DNA from: Leptolyngbya sp. Heron Island J
GTDB lineage: Bacteria > Cyanobacteriota > Cyanobacteriia > Phormidesmidales > Phormidesmidaceae
NCBI RefSeq assembly: GCF_000482245.1
Contig: NZ_AWNH01000022.1
Coordinates: forward strand, 1 to 64,000
Direction of reading: 5' to 3'
Length of the DNA: 64,000 bases
Part shown: one piece after another, positions 42,979 through 52,283 of the stretch
Layout of the letters: every line of letters begins with the position of its first letter
Position numbering within the stretch: position 1 is the stretch's first letter
Translations under genes and position numbers: made by a program
Notes under the pieces: model-generated
Told to the model about the DNA's origin: nothing
Databases searched by the model: none
The model's input: the letters and a program-made list of their open reading frames with translations, nothing else

Positions 42979-44097
42979 ATGAATCAAGCTACGAAACCTA
43001 GAAAAAGAATAGCAGTGAAGTTTCCATCTACAAAAAACAACACTCTCATTAAAGTCTTAAAATACAGCTTATTAGCAGGACTTTCAGTTTTCATCACATC
43101 TCATTCTTTAACTCAAATAATAACGCCTCCCAAAATCCCTCAAAACATAGGTTTTATCAGTCCCAAAAAAACTTACTATCAAGCCCATAAAGACAACTAC
43201 AACACGCTATTCTTTGGCTCTAGCAGAGTCTTAAATCACATCAATCCAGAAGTCATCGATCAAGTAGCTAAATCAGAAGGTTTAGAGATTAGCAGTTATA
43301 ATTTTGGCATACCTGCTATACGAGAAATACACAGCTATGTTCTTCTGAGAGACGTGCTGCAAGATGCACCAGAACATTTAGAGTGGGTATTTATTGAAAT
43401 CTCGTTAGATAAGGGATATGAGCCTATTGCCAATGCTCGAACAAAACGCTCAATTTACTGGCATACTTTCAGCAATACACGCATCGCAATTGAATACATC
43501 ATCAATTCTGAGGAATCGGCATTCAACAAAGCTATTTTAATTAGCAGTCACATCCTCCCGTATATATATCATCAATTAAATATAGGTATTATTTCCAATC
43601 ACCTATGGCCCTCAGAAACTCAAAGCTTAGAAAGCCAAAGAGATCAGAAAATATATGAAGCCAATAAGGGTTTTCTAGGCATAACCAGCAATCATTACAA
43701 TGACTTAAGACAGTTATTTTTAGCTGACCAATTCGATTATCAAAAAGATGTCAAAAAACTGATTAATTACCACAAAAATAGAACAGAAAAAGATAATGAT
43801 CTACCTGACAATAAGCGTATTTTACTAAGTAAGATCATAGACACGGTCCATGCAGCAGGAGCAACTCCATTTTTTATCATTACACCGACATTAAATACTG
43901 CTCAAGATTTATATCAAGCTCATGAGGAAGATTTAATTCCTACTTTATTTGCCTATAACAATCCATCTGATTATCCACAATTTTATGATGCAGAGAATCG
44001 CCATGATCCAGAGCATCTAAACATTCAAACTGCTAATAATTTTAGTCAAGAGCTAGCACAAGATTTTATTCAGGCAATTAAAACTAAAAATTTCTAA
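42979..44097 (+). CDS. SGNH-hydrolase-like membrane protein, MBOAT partner
   Basis: 372 residues. One span at ~24-46 (VLKYSLLAGLSVFITSHSLTQ), then an extracytoplasmic domain. NTLFFGSSRVLNHINPEVI looks like SGNH block I (Gly-Ser-Ser), and HDPEHLN near the C-terminus looks like the Asp-x2-His block. I do not recognise a precise family, but this pattern (single span, SGNH-like, before an MBOAT gene) is that of DltD/AlgJ-type acyltransferase partners. A+T-rich with codon use unlike its neighbours. 51 bases before the MBOAT gene. Confidence 0.82.
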   Translation: MNQATKPRKRIAVKFPSTKNNTLIKVLKYSLLAGLSVFITSHSLTQIITPPKIPQNIGFISPKKTYYQAHKDNYNTLFFGSSRVLNHINPEVIDQVAKSEGLEISSYNFGIPAIREIHSYVLLRDVLQDAPEHLEWVFIEISLDKGYEPIANARTKRSIYWHTFSNTRIAIEYIINSEESAFNKAILISSHILPYIYHQLNIGIISNHLWPSETQSLESQRDQKIYEANKGFLGITSNHYNDLRQLFLADQFDYQKDVKKLINYHKNRTEKDNDLPDNKRILLSKIIDTVHAAGATPFFIITPTLNTAQDLYQAHEEDLIPTLFAYNNPSDYPQFYDAENRHDPEHLNIQTANNFSQELAQDFIQAIKTKNF

Positions 44098-44148
44098 ACT
44101 CAATTAACTGTTTAAGTTCAGGATCTATAATTTTTAGTTTTTATCATT

Positions 44149-45555
44149 ATGATTTTTACAGAATTTAGATTTATTCTGTTTTTTATATTGGTATTTTCAA
44201 TCTATTGGAAATTGCCAAACAAAACCTGGAAGAAGCTTTGGTTACTTATTTGCAGTTACATATTCTATGGGATATGGGATTGGAGATTTTTATCCCTTAT
44301 TATTGGCTCTACTTTTGTAGACTACATGACAGGGCTTAAAATCTATGATAGTAATACTCAAATCGCCAAAAAAGCCTGGTTGACACTCAGTCTATCTATT
44401 AACCTTGGAATTCTTGGTTTCTTCAAATACTATAATTTCTTTGTTGATTCACTGGTCCATCTATTTGACACCACAGGCCTGTCATTCAACTCAATTAATA
44501 TTAATATTATCCTGCCTGCTGGCATCAGTTTTTATACATTACAAACCCTCAGTTACTCACTAGATATCTATTTTGGTAAGCTGACGCCCCAAAAAAACTT
44601 TTTGAATTTAGCGTGCTTTGTCGCATTTTTCCCTCAACTTTTAGCAGGTCCTATTGTTCGAGCATCAGACTTTCTGCCTCAACTCACAGCTATTCAAAAA
44701 TTTAGAAATGTCAATGTAAAAGCCTGTTTAGTGCTCTTTATAGTAGGCTTCTTCAAAAAGGCATGTATATCGGATAATTTAGCGCCCTTTGTAGACAATT
44801 ATTTTTCAGCAGTTGATAGCTACACCGCTTTAAGTGGCTGGTTGGCAACTATGTCCTATGCTGTTCAAATTTATTGTGATTTTTCTGGTTACTCTGATAT
44901 GGCCATCGCCTGCGCAGGGTTATTAGGCTATAACCTCTGTGTCAATTTTGATGCCCCATATTTCTCAAGTAGCATCACAGAATTTTGGAGAAGATGGCAC
45001 ATTAGCCTATCAAACTGGTTAAGAGATTACTTATACATTCCTTTAGGAGGAAATCGTGATGGCACAATTGCTACATACCGAAACCTGATAATCACTATGC
45101 TGATTGGTGGTCTCTGGCATGGAGCTGCTTGGAGATTCGTTGTCTGGGGAGCACTTCATGGGATTGCACTAGTGTGTCATAAGGAGTGGAGTCAGCTTTG
45201 GAATAAGAAAAGCCTAATTAATCAAACCTCTAAAATTTGGGGAGTTGGTATCACTTTTTATTGGGTATGTTTCACATGGATTTTCTTTCGCGCTAATAGC
45301 TTTATCGATGCATTATCAGTCGCCAAAGCGTACGTCTTATTTCAATCTCCAGGTAGTCAACAACTTGAGCCCCGTCTTTGGTTAATTTTGGTCGGTCTTG
45401 CAGCGTTACATTGGGTATCTGCTCGCATGTCCTGGACACAGATCATCGAAAAACTGCCTAATCAGGTATTCGCCATCGGATATGGATACACGGTGGCAGT
45501 CGTCATGCTGCTGATGTCCACAGGCTATGCACCGTTTATATATTTCCAGTTTTAG
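44149..45555 (+). CDS. MBOAT-family membrane O-acyltransferase (AlgI/PatA-like)
   Basis: 468 residues, ~11 spans. Family marks: QLLAGPIVRASDFLPQL, IYCDFSGYSDMAIACA-type segment, NFDAPYFSSSITEFWRRWHISLSNWLRDYLYIPLGG, and catalytic His in IGGLWHGAAWRFVVWG. It transfers acyl (often acetyl) groups across the membrane onto surface polysaccharide or cell wall. Pairs with the SGNH gene upstream. Confidence 0.93.
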   Translation: MIFTEFRFILFFILVFSIYWKLPNKTWKKLWLLICSYIFYGIWDWRFLSLIIGSTFVDYMTGLKIYDSNTQIAKKAWLTLSLSINLGILGFFKYYNFFVDSLVHLFDTTGLSFNSININIILPAGISFYTLQTLSYSLDIYFGKLTPQKNFLNLACFVAFFPQLLAGPIVRASDFLPQLTAIQKFRNVNVKACLVLFIVGFFKKACISDNLAPFVDNYFSAVDSYTALSGWLATMSYAVQIYCDFSGYSDMAIACAGLLGYNLCVNFDAPYFSSSITEFWRRWHISLSNWLRDYLYIPLGGNRDGTIATYRNLIITMLIGGLWHGAAWRFVVWGALHGIALVCHKEWSQLWNKKSLINQTSKIWGVGITFYWVCFTWIFFRANSFIDALSVAKAYVLFQSPGSQQLEPRLWLILVGLAALHWVSARMSWTQIIEKLPNQVFAIGYGYTVAVVMLLMSTGYAPFIYFQF

Positions 45556-45597: not shown

Positions 45598-46929
45598 TTA
45601 ACTACTAATCGACGGCAACCAGTTCACCAAAGATGGAAACGCAATAATTGCTACTAATACCAGCAACTGCAGTGCAATAAATGGCACAACGCCTCGATAG
45701 ATATTGGCTGTAGAGACATCTTTAGGAGCCACACCACGTAGATAAAATAGGGCAAATCCAAACGGTGGGGTTAAAAATGACGTTTGCATATTAGCTCCAA
45801 TAATCACCCCATACCACACTAGGTCTAGGCCCAACTGTTGAGCTACTGGTGCAAATAGAGGAATCACAATAAAGGCAATTTCAAAAAAGTCGATAAAAAA
45901 GCCGAGGATAAAAATCGTCACCATGCTGACGACTAAAAAGCCGAGGCTACCTCCAGGTAAATTGGTCAGCACATCAAAAATAAAGCTATCTCCCCGTAAT
46001 CCGCGAAACACCAAACTGAAGGCTGTAGACCCCAACAGGATAAAAATCACCATGGTGGTGGTTCGCAGTGTGCTGTCACAAACTTCCCGCAAACTGCTGA
46101 TAGTTAGCTGCCGATTAAAGGCCGCCAATATCATGGCACCAACAGCTCCCAAAGCACCCGCTTCTGTCGGTGTAGCAATACCAAAGAAAATGCTGCCTAA
46201 CACCAGCAAAATCAGCACTAGCGGTGGCACCATCACTTTACAGACCTTAAAAACTAGGGCTTGCCCCCTAGTTTTTAATAAGTCTGGGGGTAACGCAGGC
46301 AGTAAATCAGGTCGGACCAAGGCAATGACAGCGACATGTACAACGAATACCCCAGCCATCAGCAACCCTGGGATAAATGATCCCAAAAATAAATCCCCAA
46401 CAGATACGCCTAGCTGATCGGCTAAAACGACCAGCACAATGCTAGGTGGGATGATTTGGCCAAGGGTGCCTGACGCAGCAATAACACCTGTCGCAACGTC
46501 CTTGTTATAGCCATGGCGCAGCATCGTCGGTAGGGAAATTAGCCCCATGGTGACTACCGTAGCGGCAACAACTCCGGTTGTTGCCGCTAGCAGTGCGCCT
46601 ACAACAACGACTGCGATCGCTAACCCACCCCGCAGTCGACCAAACAGGCTGCCCATGGTTTCCAGCAGGTTTTCTGCAATCCCCGACTTCTCCAACATGG
46701 CTCCCATAAAAATAAAGTAGGGAATCGCCAGTAGAGTGAAATTATTCATAATGCCGAAGATTCGCTGCGGCATCGCAGTCAGAAAGACAGGGTCAAATAC
46801 ACCCAGGGCAATACCAATAGAACCAAACAGTATGGCTACCCCTCCCAGGGAAAACGCCACCGGATAACCCAGCGATAGGAGCACCAGGGCTCCGCCAAAC
46901 ATCAGCGGCCCCAACCAATCAGTTAGCAT
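45598..46929 (-). CDS. dctM: TRAP transporter large permease DctM
   Basis: 12-span ion-coupled permease subunit. PYFIFMGAMLEKSGIAENLL, ATTGVVAATVVTMGLISLPTML, ASGTLGQIIPPSIVLVVL, GIATPTEAGALGAVGA, and the C-terminal NMQTSFLTPPFGFALFYLRG are characteristic. The frame opens at 46956, but ATG 46929 (MLTDWLG) follows GGAGGCTGGAG and leaves only 11 bases overlap with dctQ. 443 aa. Confidence 0.95.
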   Translation of the reverse strand: MLTDWLGPLMFGGALVLLSLGYPVAFSLGGVAILFGSIGIALGVFDPVFLTAMPQRIFGIMNNFTLLAIPYFIFMGAMLEKSGIAENLLETMGSLFGRLRGGLAIAVVVVGALLAATTGVVAATVVTMGLISLPTMLRHGYNKDVATGVIAASGTLGQIIPPSIVLVVLADQLGVSVGDLFLGSFIPGLLMAGVFVVHVAVIALVRPDLLPALPPDLLKTRGQALVFKVCKVMVPPLVLILLVLGSIFFGIATPTEAGALGAVGAMILAAFNRQLTISSLREVCDSTLRTTTMVIFILLGSTAFSLVFRGLRGDSFIFDVLTNLPGGSLGFLVVSMVTIFILGFFIDFFEIAFIVIPLFAPVAQQLGLDLVWYGVIIGANMQTSFLTPPFGFALFYLRGVAPKDVSTANIYRGVVPFIALQLLVLVAIIAFPSLVNWLPSISS

Positions 46930-47491
46930 CTCCAGCCTCCCTATTGAGATCATCACGGGTTTCGTCTGCCGGTAAATTCCCCGAGAAAATCGCCCAATTT
47001 TTAATCGCTTCTGAAATGCCCTGCAAGATCAGCAGCCCAAAACTCACCAAAATCATGGTCTTGATGGGAAACCGCAGTAGACCACCAGGGTCCGGCGATG
47101 TTTCCCATACCACCCAGGATCTAACGACCGTTCCCCAAGAGAAATAAATTACCAGGGCCGAAAACGGGATCAAGAAAAGTATTGTCCCGATAAAGTCAGC
47201 CAAGGCTTTTTGGCGACGAGACCAGCGATCGTAAAATACGTCAACTCGAACATGACCACCTTTTTGTAGAGTGTAGGCAGCCCCTAGTAGAAAGACGATA
47301 TCAAATAGATACCATTGAGTTTCAATCAGCGCGTTAGAACTCAAATTTTGGCCGACTAAATTGCCTAGATAGCGACCCATGACATTCCAGGTACCCATGC
47401 CAATCATCGCTAGCACTAACCAGTAGGCAAACTTTCCTACTTGATTAGTAAATGCATCTATCCTACGAGCAACAGAAAGTAAGGAGCGCAA
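46919..47491 (-). CDS. dctQ: TRAP transporter small permease DctQ
   Basis: 190 residues, four spans, starting ~20 (FAYWLVLAMIGMGTWNVMGRYLG). FDIVFLLGAAYTLQKGGHVRVDVFYDRWS and KTMILVSFGLLILQGISEAIK match DctQ. Start is TTG 47491 (no upstream ATG). Overlaps dctM. The matching DctP is at 39.7 kb, not adjacent. Confidence 0.9.
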   Translation of the reverse strand: MRSLLSVARRIDAFTNQVGKFAYWLVLAMIGMGTWNVMGRYLGNLVGQNLSSNALIETQWYLFDIVFLLGAAYTLQKGGHVRVDVFYDRWSRRQKALADFIGTILFLIPFSALVIYFSWGTVVRSWVVWETSPDPGGLLRFPIKTMILVSFGLLILQGISEAIKNWAIFSGNLPADETRDDLNREAGDAN

Positions 47492-47650
47492 AACCTATTG
47501 CCAATTTTCTACCGTCGTATTTTATACCGCCGAGGCAGCGTATCCTGAGCAAGGGAACAATTTGCAATCTTGCATACAGTAATTCAGACCTCAGATTTGG
47601 GGTATCTCCTGCAAGAGTTGGATAAGGTTTTAGCGATCGCATCTAAGGCA

Positions 47651-49057
47651 TCAGGCAGTGAGACCAATACATTCTGCAAATAAAGCCTTGGCATCAGACA
47701 AAGCCCCTGCCTCTACCGCTAGCCTAATTTTTGCAATTGCGTCACCTAAACTAGCATTGCCAAGCACATACTCATTAATTTCATTATTCTCGTATTTCTT
47801 ATTAGCAAATAGGTCACAACAGGTCACATTAATATAAAGCTCAAGAATTAAAAGATGAGTGCAATTTTGATATAAATCATCTAGCTGAGAACATACATTG
47901 ACACCATATGTCCATAGATCTTCAATTCCTTGTGAAGTATCTGAACCAGAAGCAAAGATCCTTCTACTCACTAACTGTCGACTTTTTTCCAAAATGCTCT
48001 GCATAAGTTTTGGATACTGAATAAATTGCAAAGCATTATGGGCATGAGCCCCATCACTGGGTATTCCTTGAACGGCACCACATAGTAGATACTTAGTCCT
48101 ACTGACACTTGCCCACATCAATATCAATATGGACTCAATTAGTGCTCCAGATTTAATACTCAATGAAGGAGCAAGAAAACTAGATTGTGACAAGGGAAAT
48201 TCAAAATCAGAAAAATATAAAGGATTACTCGATGGTAATTCGAGCAATCCATCAATTTCTAACAAAAAGCTATAAATTGAATCTGTTAAGCTGTCTAACA
48301 GCTGCGGGGTTGATCGAATAGAGATCGGATTTTGCCGTTCGTAATCAGAATATTTACTACCTATATACTTTTCTAAGTACTGTCTCAATAACTCGCTGTG
48401 ATGCCTTACTAAAGGAGTATAAAAGTTGCTCTTGTTTGCCCCCACCAGTACGTTGTTTAATTTGGTAGTCTCTAAAAAAAGCATCCAAATACAACTAATT
48501 TTTCTAACTAGCGCAATAGAATAGCCAACATGAATGAATGAACCGTTGACCAAAGCCATAACTTCACCTGGCCCGGCATAATATTCGTCATTATTTTCTG
48601 CATATTTCAGAACAGAAGCCGCCCAGTGAGAACCAGGGATGACATCGCCGCAGGAGTAGGAAGAATCTTTTGGGATTTTGGGTATAAATCTGACATCATT
48701 AAGCGCTCTCAAAATAATGTCATACAGCTTTAGTGAAATGCCGGTGCCACCTGCGGCCAGGGAATACGCTTTTGCATAATTGATGCAGGCAGTCTCATAT
48801 TTCGAGTACCAGGGCTCAACACCTATCGTATGACTACTCAAAAAATCTGTATTAAACTTTTGAATTTCCGCCTCAGGCAGAACTTCTGTATCGCGATGAC
48901 CAACCCGTGTATTGGCACCATACATCCGAGAAGATGGCTGAGCAAGTAAGGATAAAAAAAACGATCGCTCACGTTCTATTCTATCCCTTGCAGCATACCA
49001 GTCAGTTGGAAGCTCATGACCTGCGATGTGATCCAAACATTTTTGCAAGCGTTTCAT
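47651..49057 (-). CDS. Divergent histidine/aromatic ammonia-lyase-like protein (Lyase_aromatic fold)
   Basis: Sequence pattern matches the HAL/PAL family across its length: Y46 in RMYGANTRVG, H76 in LSSHTIGV, MIO-triad position S135-C136-G137 in DSSYSCGDVIPG, N171 in EVMALVNGS, Q242/R248 in QNPISIRSTPQ, SNPL (277-280), F294, and E379 in SQGIEDLW. The canonical MIO Ala-Ser-Gly is Ser-Cys-Gly, and HAL Tyr280 is Ile245. So it is either a lyase using a Cys-derived MIO, or a MIO-free relative (ergothionase is a family member). 468 aa, close to HAL (~510). Last gene of the EgtC-led series; A+T-rich. Confidence 0.75.
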   Translation of the reverse strand: MKRLQKCLDHIAGHELPTDWYAARDRIERERSFFLSLLAQPSSRMYGANTRVGHRDTEVLPEAEIQKFNTDFLSSHTIGVEPWYSKYETACINYAKAYSLAAGGTGISLKLYDIILRALNDVRFIPKIPKDSSYSCGDVIPGSHWAASVLKYAENNDEYYAGPGEVMALVNGSFIHVGYSIALVRKISCIWMLFLETTKLNNVLVGANKSNFYTPLVRHHSELLRQYLEKYIGSKYSDYERQNPISIRSTPQLLDSLTDSIYSFLLEIDGLLELPSSNPLYFSDFEFPLSQSSFLAPSLSIKSGALIESILILMWASVSRTKYLLCGAVQGIPSDGAHAHNALQFIQYPKLMQSILEKSRQLVSRRIFASGSDTSQGIEDLWTYGVNVCSQLDDLYQNCTHLLILELYINVTCCDLFANKKYENNEINEYVLGNASLGDAIAKIRLAVEAGALSDAKALFAECIGLTA

Positions 49058-49099
49058 AGTATGGATTAACTTTCAACAGTTAATAGAACAGAGCTGTCA

Positions 49100-50323
49100 C
49101 TATCTGTCATTAGCATCTGCAGTTGCAAGGCGTATTTTTTTAGCTATTTCACGAGCCGCCGCCGGATCAAGATTACGCTGACGTAGCTCAAAAATACAAT
49201 TAATTAGCTGTTTTGTAGTGATTACATTTTCTAATTTCAGTAAAGACTCAGACAAACCTGGAATGCTATCAAGCGCTTTCTGACTAACCAATGGAATCGC
49301 CTCATAAGAGGGAAAGAAAGATTCAGCATCAGTTAACGTCAAAACCCTAGGTTGATACAGTTCTGGATCTGTTTCATATCCCACAAATACATCTGCAATT
49401 TTATTATTCAGTAATTCATATCGAGCCGTTATATTACAGGGCTCCACCCTCAGAAAATTCAGATTGTACCTTGAAGCTAAACCCAAGTAACAATCTTTTC
49501 GATTGAGAAATTCAGGATCTGCAGAAAAAGTTAATTCATGAGCGGCCCAACGTAGATCAGCTATTTCCAGAATTCCATATTTTTCAGCTGTTTCCTGATG
49601 CATTACTATGCTGTAACCCTCTGATGCACCTAAAGGTCTCATCCATCGCAGGCCAAGCTTACTGCCATATTGATTAAGGTTCTCAATTAATTCATCTAAG
49701 GACTTTTTTTGATGGTTGATATTGAAAAATTGAAGACATGTTCCTGTAAAGTCAACATACATATCAATCCAATTATTTTGTAGGTCAGCAAAGTTTTTTA
49801 AGCTCCCCCCATTAGGTACCCTTAATTCACATTGTGTTCCTGGTACCGTATTTTCAATCCAATCAGCCAAAAAATGAGCAAAAAATACCTGTGAAACATC
49901 AAGTTTTGAGCCAATAATCAGACGTTTCTGTTGCAAACGTTCCCCTGCCGTTATATCTCGACCTGCCAATATTGGCCAAAGTGCCTGTTCCGCAGTGCTT
50001 AGTTGCACAGAGATATCATTTTTGACCTCATCAACTTTTGACTGGATATTCTGTACTTGTCGTGATATTTCAACTTCTATATCTTGTCCTGGTAACTTCA
50101 GAGTAAATGACGTGATTGCCTGAGCTAAAGCAAGTAAAAGAAATGGCAAAAATAGCAATCCTAACAAGACCAGAACTTGGTTAGTTGCCCGCAACCATTC
50201 CAAAATTCCTAACTCGGATAAAAGCAGTACAACTAATAATCCTATGTAGGCAATAAAAACAATTGCAAAACCAGTATTAGCTATAAGGCCAGACGGAAAC
50301 GTATATTTTTTTCTATTAGGCAT
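49100..50323 (-). CDS. Membrane-anchored OpuAC (quaternary ammonium-binding) protein
   Basis: Two N-terminal spans (~12-36, 45-70), a coiled-coil linker (~80-110, EISRQVQNIQSKVDEVKNDI), then an OpuAC solute-binding domain from ~130: IIGSKLDVSQVFFAHFLADW, WIDMYVDFTGTC, WMRPLGASEGYSIVMHQET, AEKYGILEIADL, FSADPEFLNRKDCYLGL, FFPSYEAIPLV. OpuAC domains bind glycine betaine, choline or, in EgtU, ergothioneine. Usual ones are free or lipo-anchored beside a permease; here no ABC genes are adjacent, so a tethered receptor or feeder role is inferred. 407 aa. Confidence 0.8.
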   Translation of the reverse strand: MPNRKKYTFPSGLIANTGFAIVFIAYIGLLVVLLLSELGILEWLRATNQVLVLLGLLFLPFLLLALAQAITSFTLKLPGQDIEVEISRQVQNIQSKVDEVKNDISVQLSTAEQALWPILAGRDITAGERLQQKRLIIGSKLDVSQVFFAHFLADWIENTVPGTQCELRVPNGGSLKNFADLQNNWIDMYVDFTGTCLQFFNINHQKKSLDELIENLNQYGSKLGLRWMRPLGASEGYSIVMHQETAEKYGILEIADLRWAAHELTFSADPEFLNRKDCYLGLASRYNLNFLRVEPCNITARYELLNNKIADVFVGYETDPELYQPRVLTLTDAESFFPSYEAIPLVSQKALDSIPGLSESLLKLENVITTKQLINCIFELRQRNLDPAAAREIAKKIRLATADANDR

Positions 50324-50362
50324 GATTCCCCTCAGAAGTTCTGTGCTAGCTAGGCTTTTGAC

Positions 50363-51472
50363 CTAAATACTTCCTCCAATGTCTAATGCTCTAGCATCGA
50401 CAAAAAGTATCTGTCTTCTGAGGGGGCCATTTAAGATGCGAACCTGCACTAATTCATCTATATCATTGAGACCATCTAAATCACTTGAAATACTTGCATT
50501 CAGATAAGAATCAGGCCACATCTCAACCACTGCTTTGGTGCCATTAGCTAATAAGATATAGTTTTTATCTTGCTTATCAAAAAGAGCTTTCAGTTGTCCA
50601 TCACTAGAAAATGGATGTAAAATCACCAGTCTTTTTTCATCGATTTTATTGAGAACTCTTGTTGCAATCTTATCAATTCCTTCTTGACCTAACGATCTAA
50701 GCGCAGAATCAAATTCCTCAATTAAGCGTTTATTACTTGGATTTTTCTTAGATGCCATCAGATAGAATGGCACACTGTACAATGGAATATGTTGAATATC
50801 TTGCTGCTGCCGAGGAAAATTTTCTCGCAGCACTTCTTTACCAACCTCTGTTGCTTCCGCCACCATTTGCACTTGAGAATTGGTAAGCAGTTTTGAAAAT
50901 GCATCAACATTATCTTTAGCAAAAAATGATGTCTGAGATATTTTTTGGATATCTGGCGGATAACGATATCCTTCGATAGGTAGTAGCTTGTATCCTTTAA
51001 GAGACTGAAAAGATTGAAACTGCAGCAGTTCAGGATTATTTTTGAGGTTAAAGAAAATGGATGTCTCTACATCTAAAATAGGACTTGAGAAATAAAAGTC
51101 TTTTTCCCTGTCTGGGGTTTTTATGTAGGGAAAAATACCTCGTATATCGTGGTTCACTTCACTTTCGTATGCTGCCTCTTGACCTAGGAACCATGGCATG
51201 AATTTAAATTCAGCTTGGTAACCAGCTTCCTTCATTGCTTCGAAAATAACTGCTGAGGCAATGCCATACTCGTCCACCATTTCTCCACTAAAAGGAGAAT
51301 ATTCTCCAGCGACGAAAATAGCTGGCTTAATGGTTTCCGCTACCTGAGGATTTGAAGAGCCATAAATAATAAAAAAAACAGCTAGAACTGGTATTAGTAG
51401 TGACAACATCAAAGCTGTTGACCAGTCGACAGTCTTTTTTTCATTGAGCTTATATTTTAGTAGCGGTTCCAT
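50363..51472 (-). CDS. Membrane-anchored family-3 solute-binding protein
   Basis: One span at ~20-40 (ALMLSLLIPVLAVFFIIYG), then an SBP family-3 domain (~60-280): YGIASAVIFEAMKEAGYQAEFKFMPW, DIRGIFPYIKTPDREKDFYFS, LKGYKLLPIEGYRYPPDI, VPFYLMASKKNPS. About 85 extra residues follow (LVILHPFSSDGQLKALFD to the end), unrecognised. The frame opens at TTG 51499 inside egtC; ATG 51472 is preferred (starts after the egtC stop at 51486). Followed 39 bases later by the OpuAC gene. Confidence 0.78.
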   Translation of the reverse strand: MEPLLKYKLNEKKTVDWSTALMLSLLIPVLAVFFIIYGSSNPQVAETIKPAIFVAGEYSPFSGEMVDEYGIASAVIFEAMKEAGYQAEFKFMPWFLGQEAAYESEVNHDIRGIFPYIKTPDREKDFYFSSPILDVETSIFFNLKNNPELLQFQSFQSLKGYKLLPIEGYRYPPDIQKISQTSFFAKDNVDAFSKLLTNSQVQMVAEATEVGKEVLRENFPRQQQDIQHIPLYSVPFYLMASKKNPSNKRLIEEFDSALRSLGQEGIDKIATRVLNKIDEKRLVILHPFSSDGQLKALFDKQDKNYILLANGTKAVVEMWPDSYLNASISSDLDGLNDIDELVQVRILNGPLRRQILFVDARALDIGGSI

Positions 51473-51485
51473 TCTTTTAACTTGT

Positions 51486-52283
51486 CTATATGTTTTCAAT
51501 ATGATTGCTATGAATACGAGGTTGCAAATCTCTGGCTGTAACTGTCAAGCTCTGGGTTTGAGCCAACGGTTCCCAATCATCTTCAAATAAAGGCTCAGAG
51601 GCGAGAATAATGCCTTCAGCCTGGCGCAGTAAATAAAATGAAGGCGCTTTGGCTTGATTATCAAACCGGGCTGCCACTAGCTGCTGACCATCACTGAGGA
51701 CAATTACACCTGAGACCCTCACATCATAGGTGTTGGCTAAAGACTGAACGATTTCAATAGCCTGTTCTAAGGCACCCAAAAGCTTTAGCTGAGGCTCAAG
51801 CTCTAACAAATGGGTAATCAGCGCAAAAATATGTTCAGAGTCCGTTAGACCGTAGATATTTTGATAAGCGACATCACCAATTAAATCGCGCATGGGGCGA
51901 TAGAGAGTTTGGCGAAACTTATCAATATAGCCATTGTGAACAAATAGAAGCTGACCATGGCGAAACGGCTGACAGTTACTAAAGTCTAGGGGTAAGCCTG
52001 GTGTAGCACTCCGAATATTGGCAACAAATGATCGAGCTTGAATGTAGCGGCATAGATGCGGCAAGTTGGCGTCATTCCAAATGGGAAGCACATTCCGATA
52101 TACAAAAGGCTCCACGGTAATATCGTCAGGATGATGCCAGCCAAGGCCAAACCCATCAGCATTCAGCAACGCGACTTCCAATTCCTTAGGTTGATAACTT
52201 TGCACCAGCAGGGAATGCTCGGGCTTGAGAATAAGCTCTTCGAGGGGAATAGGTACGCCTAAATAGGCAAGTAAACGGCACAT
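51486..52283 (-). CDS. egtC: Class II glutamine amidotransferase, EgtC-like
   Basis: N-terminal-nucleophile amidotransferase beginning MCRLLAYLG (Cys2 nucleophile). NADGFGLGWHHPDD, ANIRSATPG, NCQPFRHGQLLFVHNGYI and LTDSEHIFALITHLLE are family motifs. EgtC hydrolyses gamma-glutamyl-hercynyl-cysteine sulfoxide in ergothioneine biosynthesis. egtB and egtD are not in this window, so the assignment to ergothioneine is by sequence class; YafJ-type amidotransferases look alike. 265 aa. First gene of the minus-strand series to 47651. Confidence 0.85.
   Translation of the reverse strand: MCRLLAYLGVPIPLEELILKPEHSLLVQSYQPKELEVALLNADGFGLGWHHPDDITVEPFVYRNVLPIWNDANLPHLCRYIQARSFVANIRSATPGLPLDFSNCQPFRHGQLLFVHNGYIDKFRQTLYRPMRDLIGDVAYQNIYGLTDSEHIFALITHLLELEPQLKLLGALEQAIEIVQSLANTYDVRVSGVIVLSDGQQLVAARFDNQAKAPSFYLLRQAEGIILASEPLFEDDWEPLAQTQSLTVTARDLQPRIHSNHIENI

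Follow-up and report, generated by a model that had tools for sequence, protein, structure and literature searches.

The lyase-like gene on the minus strand at positions 47651 to 49057 of the window (the whole stretch of 64,000 nucleotides from Leptolyngbya sp. Heron Island J that was analysed) is a member of a rare clade that diverges deeply within the aromatic-ammonia-lyase fold family, as judged from its sequence. This clade, called the SCG clade here, carries Ser-Cys-Gly at the place of the MIO triad. Our leading reading, held tentatively, is that the protein is an elimination enzyme that works without a classical MIO, perhaps on a quaternary-ammonium substrate, and that it came with a horizontally acquired cassette that replaced egtB-egtD.

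The open reading frame is intact, starts with ATG and codes for 468 amino acids, of which residues 22-420 match PF00221 at 92.1 bits against a cut-off of 27.3, bearing out the ammonia-lyase-like identity proposed in an earlier note on this DNA. The HutH equivalog model gave 48 bits, far under its cut-off of 539, and the top sequence match among solved structures was ergothionase (6s7j). A structure model was predicted from an alignment of five rows, one of which is a canonical HutH that pushes the model towards the HAL fold. This mediocre model (pLDDT 67, pTM 0.72) matches HAL, aminomutase and ergothionase structures, with Z of 24-26 and rmsd of 3.6-3.8 over 421-434 residues against 7tqr, 1b8f and 6s7j, and its fold is HAL-like, as the earlier note expected. 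It is weak near the Cys136 loop, and the geometry of the loop is not readable from it.

Ser135-Cys136-Gly137 (48647-48655, minus strand) lies in a conserved motif, S133-Y-S-C-G-D-V-I-P-x-x-H-W145 (48623-48661, minus strand), which occupies the MIO-loop position. The earlier note described Ser-Cys-Gly as standing where Ala-Ser-Gly belongs; the tripeptide is indeed there, but the loop falls short of that of true HALs by one residue (SSYSCGD vs GSVGASGD), a point missed by that description. True HALs (e.g. L011 and L008) have P-x-[IV]-P-xx-GSVG-ASG-D and the window lyase has P-K-I-P-KD-SSY-SCG-D, that is, PxIP(5)SCGD in place of the canonical PxIP(6)ASGD. Whether Cys136 is the counterpart of the MIO serine varies with the placement of the gap in this short loop: with the gap before SCG, as in some alignments, Cys136 falls on Ser143, and with the gap after Cys136, as in others, it falls on Ala142, leaving Ser143 without a counterpart. 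In the window, the pattern that describes the Cys loop short by one residue has a single match, where shuffles give an expectation of 0.00. An Ala-Ser-Gly triad in a full-length loop is absent from the window lyase, and by this triad test the sequences place the SCG clade outside the MIO enzymes.

A DNA pattern for P-x-[IV]-P-x6-C-G-D-xx-P-xx-H, scanned once over about 85,000 species genomes, matched 32 genome-contig stretches, and three of these hold true homologues: one in a gammaproteobacterial MAG (L035, E 9e-102), one in Rossellomorea aquimaris (L053, E 1e-89) and one in Erythrobacter (L034, E 3e-71), with 31-38% identity to the window lyase. The single match on a viral contig was not a homologue. 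The four proteins have SYSCGDVIPxxHWA in common. Ser-Cys-Gly is kept in all three homologues, as had been anticipated for a real triad, though part of the conservation of Cys136 was built into the search, since the pattern demanded the Cys, Gly, Asp, prolines and histidine; S133, Y134, S135, V139, I140, W145 and A146 are conserved although they lie outside its demands. Searches of the 97 genomes closest to the host and of 386 genomes of its phylum yielded no close relative, and exact peptide (single-sequence) patterns detected none in genome or viral contigs. Profile searches free of the pattern's demands, run over the Erythrobacter order, the Rossellomorea order and the class of the MAG, yielded no further SCG member, the next-best matches having E of 1e-31 or weaker, which is the level of ordinary PF00221 lyases. 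Plasmid searches with the window lyase and two homologues returned, among the matches listed, only lyases below 30% identity.

In the tree, the four SCG sequences fall together as a clade (100/100) whose branch is very long, and ergothionase, its plasmid relatives and a urocanase-linked lyase from a same-class genome (L003) form a second (97/87). Joint support for the SCG clade and the ergothionase group is 41/77, with an AU p of 0.086 for the version without L003, and any position of the SCG clade is doubtful given the long branches.

The alignments uphold the seven HAL active-site matches that had been made by eye: Y46, H76, N171, Q242, R248, F294 and E379 align with HAL Tyr53, His83, Asn195, Gln277, Arg283, Phe329 and Glu414, and all of them are invariant in the four members of the clade. 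They agree as well on the replacement of HAL Tyr280 by Ile245, the three homologues having Val at this position, and they give D138 as the counterpart of HAL Asp145. In GkHAL, changes at the equivalents of Tyr53, His83, Asn195 and Glu414 abolish activity, and Tyr280 is thought to help the catalytic Glu in HAL (PMC11432326). In other MIO enzymes, replacement of the MIO serine by alanine nearly abolishes activity (PMC3903478). Apart from Tyr280 and the triad, the HAL active-site residues have stayed unchanged across long branches, from which we infer that the window lyase is catalytic.

The gene lies in a slot (47600-51500) where four congeners (L151, L152, L154 and L155) have egtB-egtD. The order is egtC-egtB-egtD-dctQ-dctM in L151, L152 and L154 and egtC-egtB-egtD in L155; the families were checked in L151, where EgtD scored above its cut-off and EgtB gave 337.6 bits against a cut-off of 360. 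The window diverges from the congeners between the last egtC codons and about 110 bp upstream of dctQ. On one side, egtC (51486-52283, minus strand; TIGR03442, 278.5 bits against a cut-off of 218.7) is the final gene in common with congeners ahead of the replaced slot, and on the other the TRAP small permease gene dctQ (46919-47491, minus strand) and the large permease gene dctM (45598-46956, minus strand) form a flank conserved in congeners. GC3 is 0.28-0.33 in the three slot genes, compared with 0.42-0.49 in the flanking genes, and a search for transposon ends around the three-gene cassette gave only weak, scattered repeats. A separate pair of SGNH-like and MBOAT genes (window 42979-45555, GC 0.32-0.43) lies between the MFS and DctM genes, which are adjacent in L152 and L154, so that this pair looks like a second acquired insert near the first.

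EgtD was found in all seven control relatives and was not found in the host genome (99% complete, 119 contigs). The host has a second egtB and egtC elsewhere (L156:8227-11508, contig C97), in the company of a DUF427 protein and a SAM methyltransferase and adjoining a polyketide synthase. In another congener, L153, egtB-egtD were also lost from the slot, and no lyase took their place; after egtC, the slot there holds a Uma2 gene and small ORFs (L153:9782-12165). Since this loss occurred without a lyase, the slot is perhaps simply prone to loss, and the position of the lyase in it may be a coincidence.

The lyase gene follows the genes of two membrane-anchored solute-binding proteins. The first is a one-TM protein (50363-51499, minus strand) with an SBP_bac_3-like domain that scored under the Pfam cut-off; its listed start is TTG, and an in-frame ATG at 51472 is likelier. 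The second (49100-50323, minus strand) has two N-terminal TM helices, a charged linker and an OpuAC domain, in which K140, F192, T195, Y237, R275, Y316 and Y340 correspond to K242, F293, T296, Y341, R379, Y419 and Y443 of EgtUC (7txl, from the EgtU-type ergothioneine transporter), that is, to its cage and carboxylate contacts. At the cage base, E235 replaces EgtUC N339. The glycine-betaine protein ProX has Tyr63 where EgtU has Phe, and the Phe is kept in the OpuAC neighbour (PMC9732360). On the other hand, the EgtU-specific Gly244 and Tyr337 are not kept (D142 and A233), and unlike EgtU the neighbour has no permease domain and has two N-terminal TM helices. The neighbour has a nearly complete betaine cage of the EgtU/ProX type, in a domain that, by the positive-inside rule, may face the cytoplasm. 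An OpuAC-like binding protein is also encoded directly upstream of a canonical HutH in another locus (L006:148-2937).

The three homologues have a different neighbour. In each of them the lyase gene directly follows or overlaps the gene of a partner protein of 446-472 amino acids with two C-terminal TM helices, for which no Pfam, PADLOC or PDB match was found and whose model (pLDDT 47) was too poor for a structure search. This partner is absent from the window and none was found in the host genome. A relation between the partner and the two binding proteins of the window was rejected, as profile comparison shows none. The gene of an NCS2 purine/pyrimidine permease lies 5 nt upstream of the partner gene in Rossellomorea, and the 8-kb loci of Erythrobacter and the gammaproteobacterium showed no recognisable egt or betaine gene. 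An anti-phage defence system, considered for the patchy spread and the membrane partner, was set aside: the lyase, the partner and the neighbours gave no PADLOC hit, and no defence gene was recognised in the 8-kb loci of the homologues. RNA elements were also looked for and none was found.

If the leading reading of elimination without a classical MIO is correct, Tyr46, His76, Asn171, Gln242, Arg248 and Glu379 would bind an amino-acid-like substrate and take its beta-proton. No electrophilic cofactor would be needed for the release of a good leaving group, for instance trimethylamine, which is also the case for ergothionase. The loop with Cys136 would form part of the pocket wall, with the cysteine as thiol, acid or base. 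The lyase and the two binding proteins would have arrived together as a three-gene cassette by horizontal transfer and replaced egtB-egtD. Two features shared with ergothionase, the short loop and the loss of Tyr280, make a MIO-free enzyme the likelier case, and a quaternary ammonium leaving group is suggested as a possibility by the cage of the neighbour and the egt slot. The earlier note had already raised a MIO-free betaine lyase, and the short loop, the egt slot and the cage of the neighbour speak for it indirectly; its interpretation is thus sustained in part. To call the protein an ergothionase would go further than these data, as the Ser and the IQK motif typical of that group are absent and the joint clade stands at 41/77. 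The conservation of Asn195 counts against the leading reading, and so do the invariance of S135, C136 and G137 in four members, as would be expected of a cofactor-forming triad, and the location of the three homologues beside a different partner gene and not beside egt or betaine-binding genes.

Formation of a natural Cys-MIO, the other alternative in the earlier note, in which Ser135-Cys136-Gly137 would cyclise, Cys136 would lose H2S to give a hydroxymethyl MIO, and ammonia would be eliminated from an aromatic amino acid, is doubtful but can be argued for. D138 is invariant in the four divergent members along with the triad, D138 and F294 preserve HAL Asp145 and Phe329, and Asn195 is retained, unlike in ergothionase. 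Moreover, the S143C variant of P. putida HAL, which Langer is said to have described in 1994, reportedly matures to an active enzyme. Cyclisation would, however, have to occur in a loop that is a residue below the length of every MIO loop compared here; in one alignment the residue that is missing is Ser143, Tyr280 is lost, and C136 and G137 were demanded by the search pattern. Literature searches for MIO-free or Cys-MIO lyases turned up only remarks on ergothionase and engineered mutants.

It is unlikely that the protein is a MIO-free lyase of a non-betaine substrate, such as another heterocyclic amino acid, with an accidental position in the egt operon. The gene row shared by the Rossellomorea homologue with a purine/pyrimidine permease would fit such a substrate, as would the Erythrobacter and gammaproteobacterial loci, where no egt or betaine gene is recognised, and the slot of L153 was emptied without a lyase, but the two neighbours acquired together with the gene are binding proteins, one of them with the nearly complete betaine cage. 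A non-catalytic descendant that would sense a ligand or regulate as a subunit of the membrane protein encoded next to it is improbable: the gene directly follows that of a membrane protein in all four cases (the two-TM partner in the homologues, the two-TM OpuAC protein in the window) and both Ala-Ser-Gly and Tyr280 are lost, but a pseudoenzyme would not be expected to keep the remaining HAL active-site residues unchanged across very long branches, as this clade does.

MIO enzymes are the textbook case of a self-made electrophilic cofactor, and ergothionase shows that catalysis on this fold is possible in its absence. A third clade, split deeply from the others and with a conserved Ser-Cys-Gly in a shortened loop, would make the fate of the MIO loop directly testable: the loop could have become a cofactor built from cysteine or a thiol that takes part in catalysis, or the cofactor could have been lost. 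It is conceivable, if somewhat against our expectation, that the SCG clade puts a conserved Cys to use at a site that in known members carries MIO or no cofactor, either as a Cys-made ring in a shortened loop or in thiol-based elimination, a chemistry that, if real, is not known in the ammonia-lyase superfamily. If the protein is an enzyme, it may thus represent a different way of doing this lyase chemistry. In the host, a lyase and binding proteins have taken the place of genes of ergothioneine synthesis, perhaps marking a change from making a betaine to using or sensing one.

Loss of the triad is seen in other lyases too. Ergothionase has no MIO cofactor (PMC13405746), and its loop, SSIG-EG-D, is shortened by one residue like that of the window lyase. 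Plasmid lyases without MIO that carry the annotation HutH or aromatic amino acid ammonia-lyase have loops shortened in the same way (GSVG-AA-D, GSVG-EA-D and GSVG-QA-D). Three such plasmid genes without Ala-Ser-Gly (L026:7881-9500, L027:7827-9515 and L029:7842-9482) group with ergothionase, and one plasmid lyase of this kind, in Paracoccus saliphilus, adjoins a hut operon and a TRAP transporter. A MIO-less lyase directly after an apparent urocanase gene (L003:1408-2979; GSIGA-SD vs GSVGASGD) is apparently inside a hut operon. In another MIO-less group, from two genomes of the Bacillales order (L090 and L091), the whole triad is deleted (GSLGY---LIYQSH) and Cys takes the place of Phe329.

Compared with HutH (1b8f, 7tqr), the window lyase shares PF00221, the fold and the equivalents of Tyr53, His83, Asn195, Gln277, Arg283, Phe329, Glu414 and Asp145, but it has Ser-Cys-Gly in a shorter loop, lacks Tyr280 and is about 40 residues shorter. 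With ergothionase (Treponema denticola, 6s7j/6s7q) and its plasmid relatives from Polaromonas, Paracoccus and Sinorhizobium it shares the fold, a loop short by one residue and the absence of Ala-Ser-Gly, and Tyr280 is replaced in both groups. Identity to the plasmid relatives is nevertheless about 19%, the ergothionase group has Ser at the Asn195 position whereas the window lyase keeps Asn171, and most of that group has an IQK motif where the SCG clade has IQxPK. Finally, the loops of the ergothionase group vary (GE-GD, GA-AD, GE-AD and GQ-AD), while that of the SCG clade is SC-GD.
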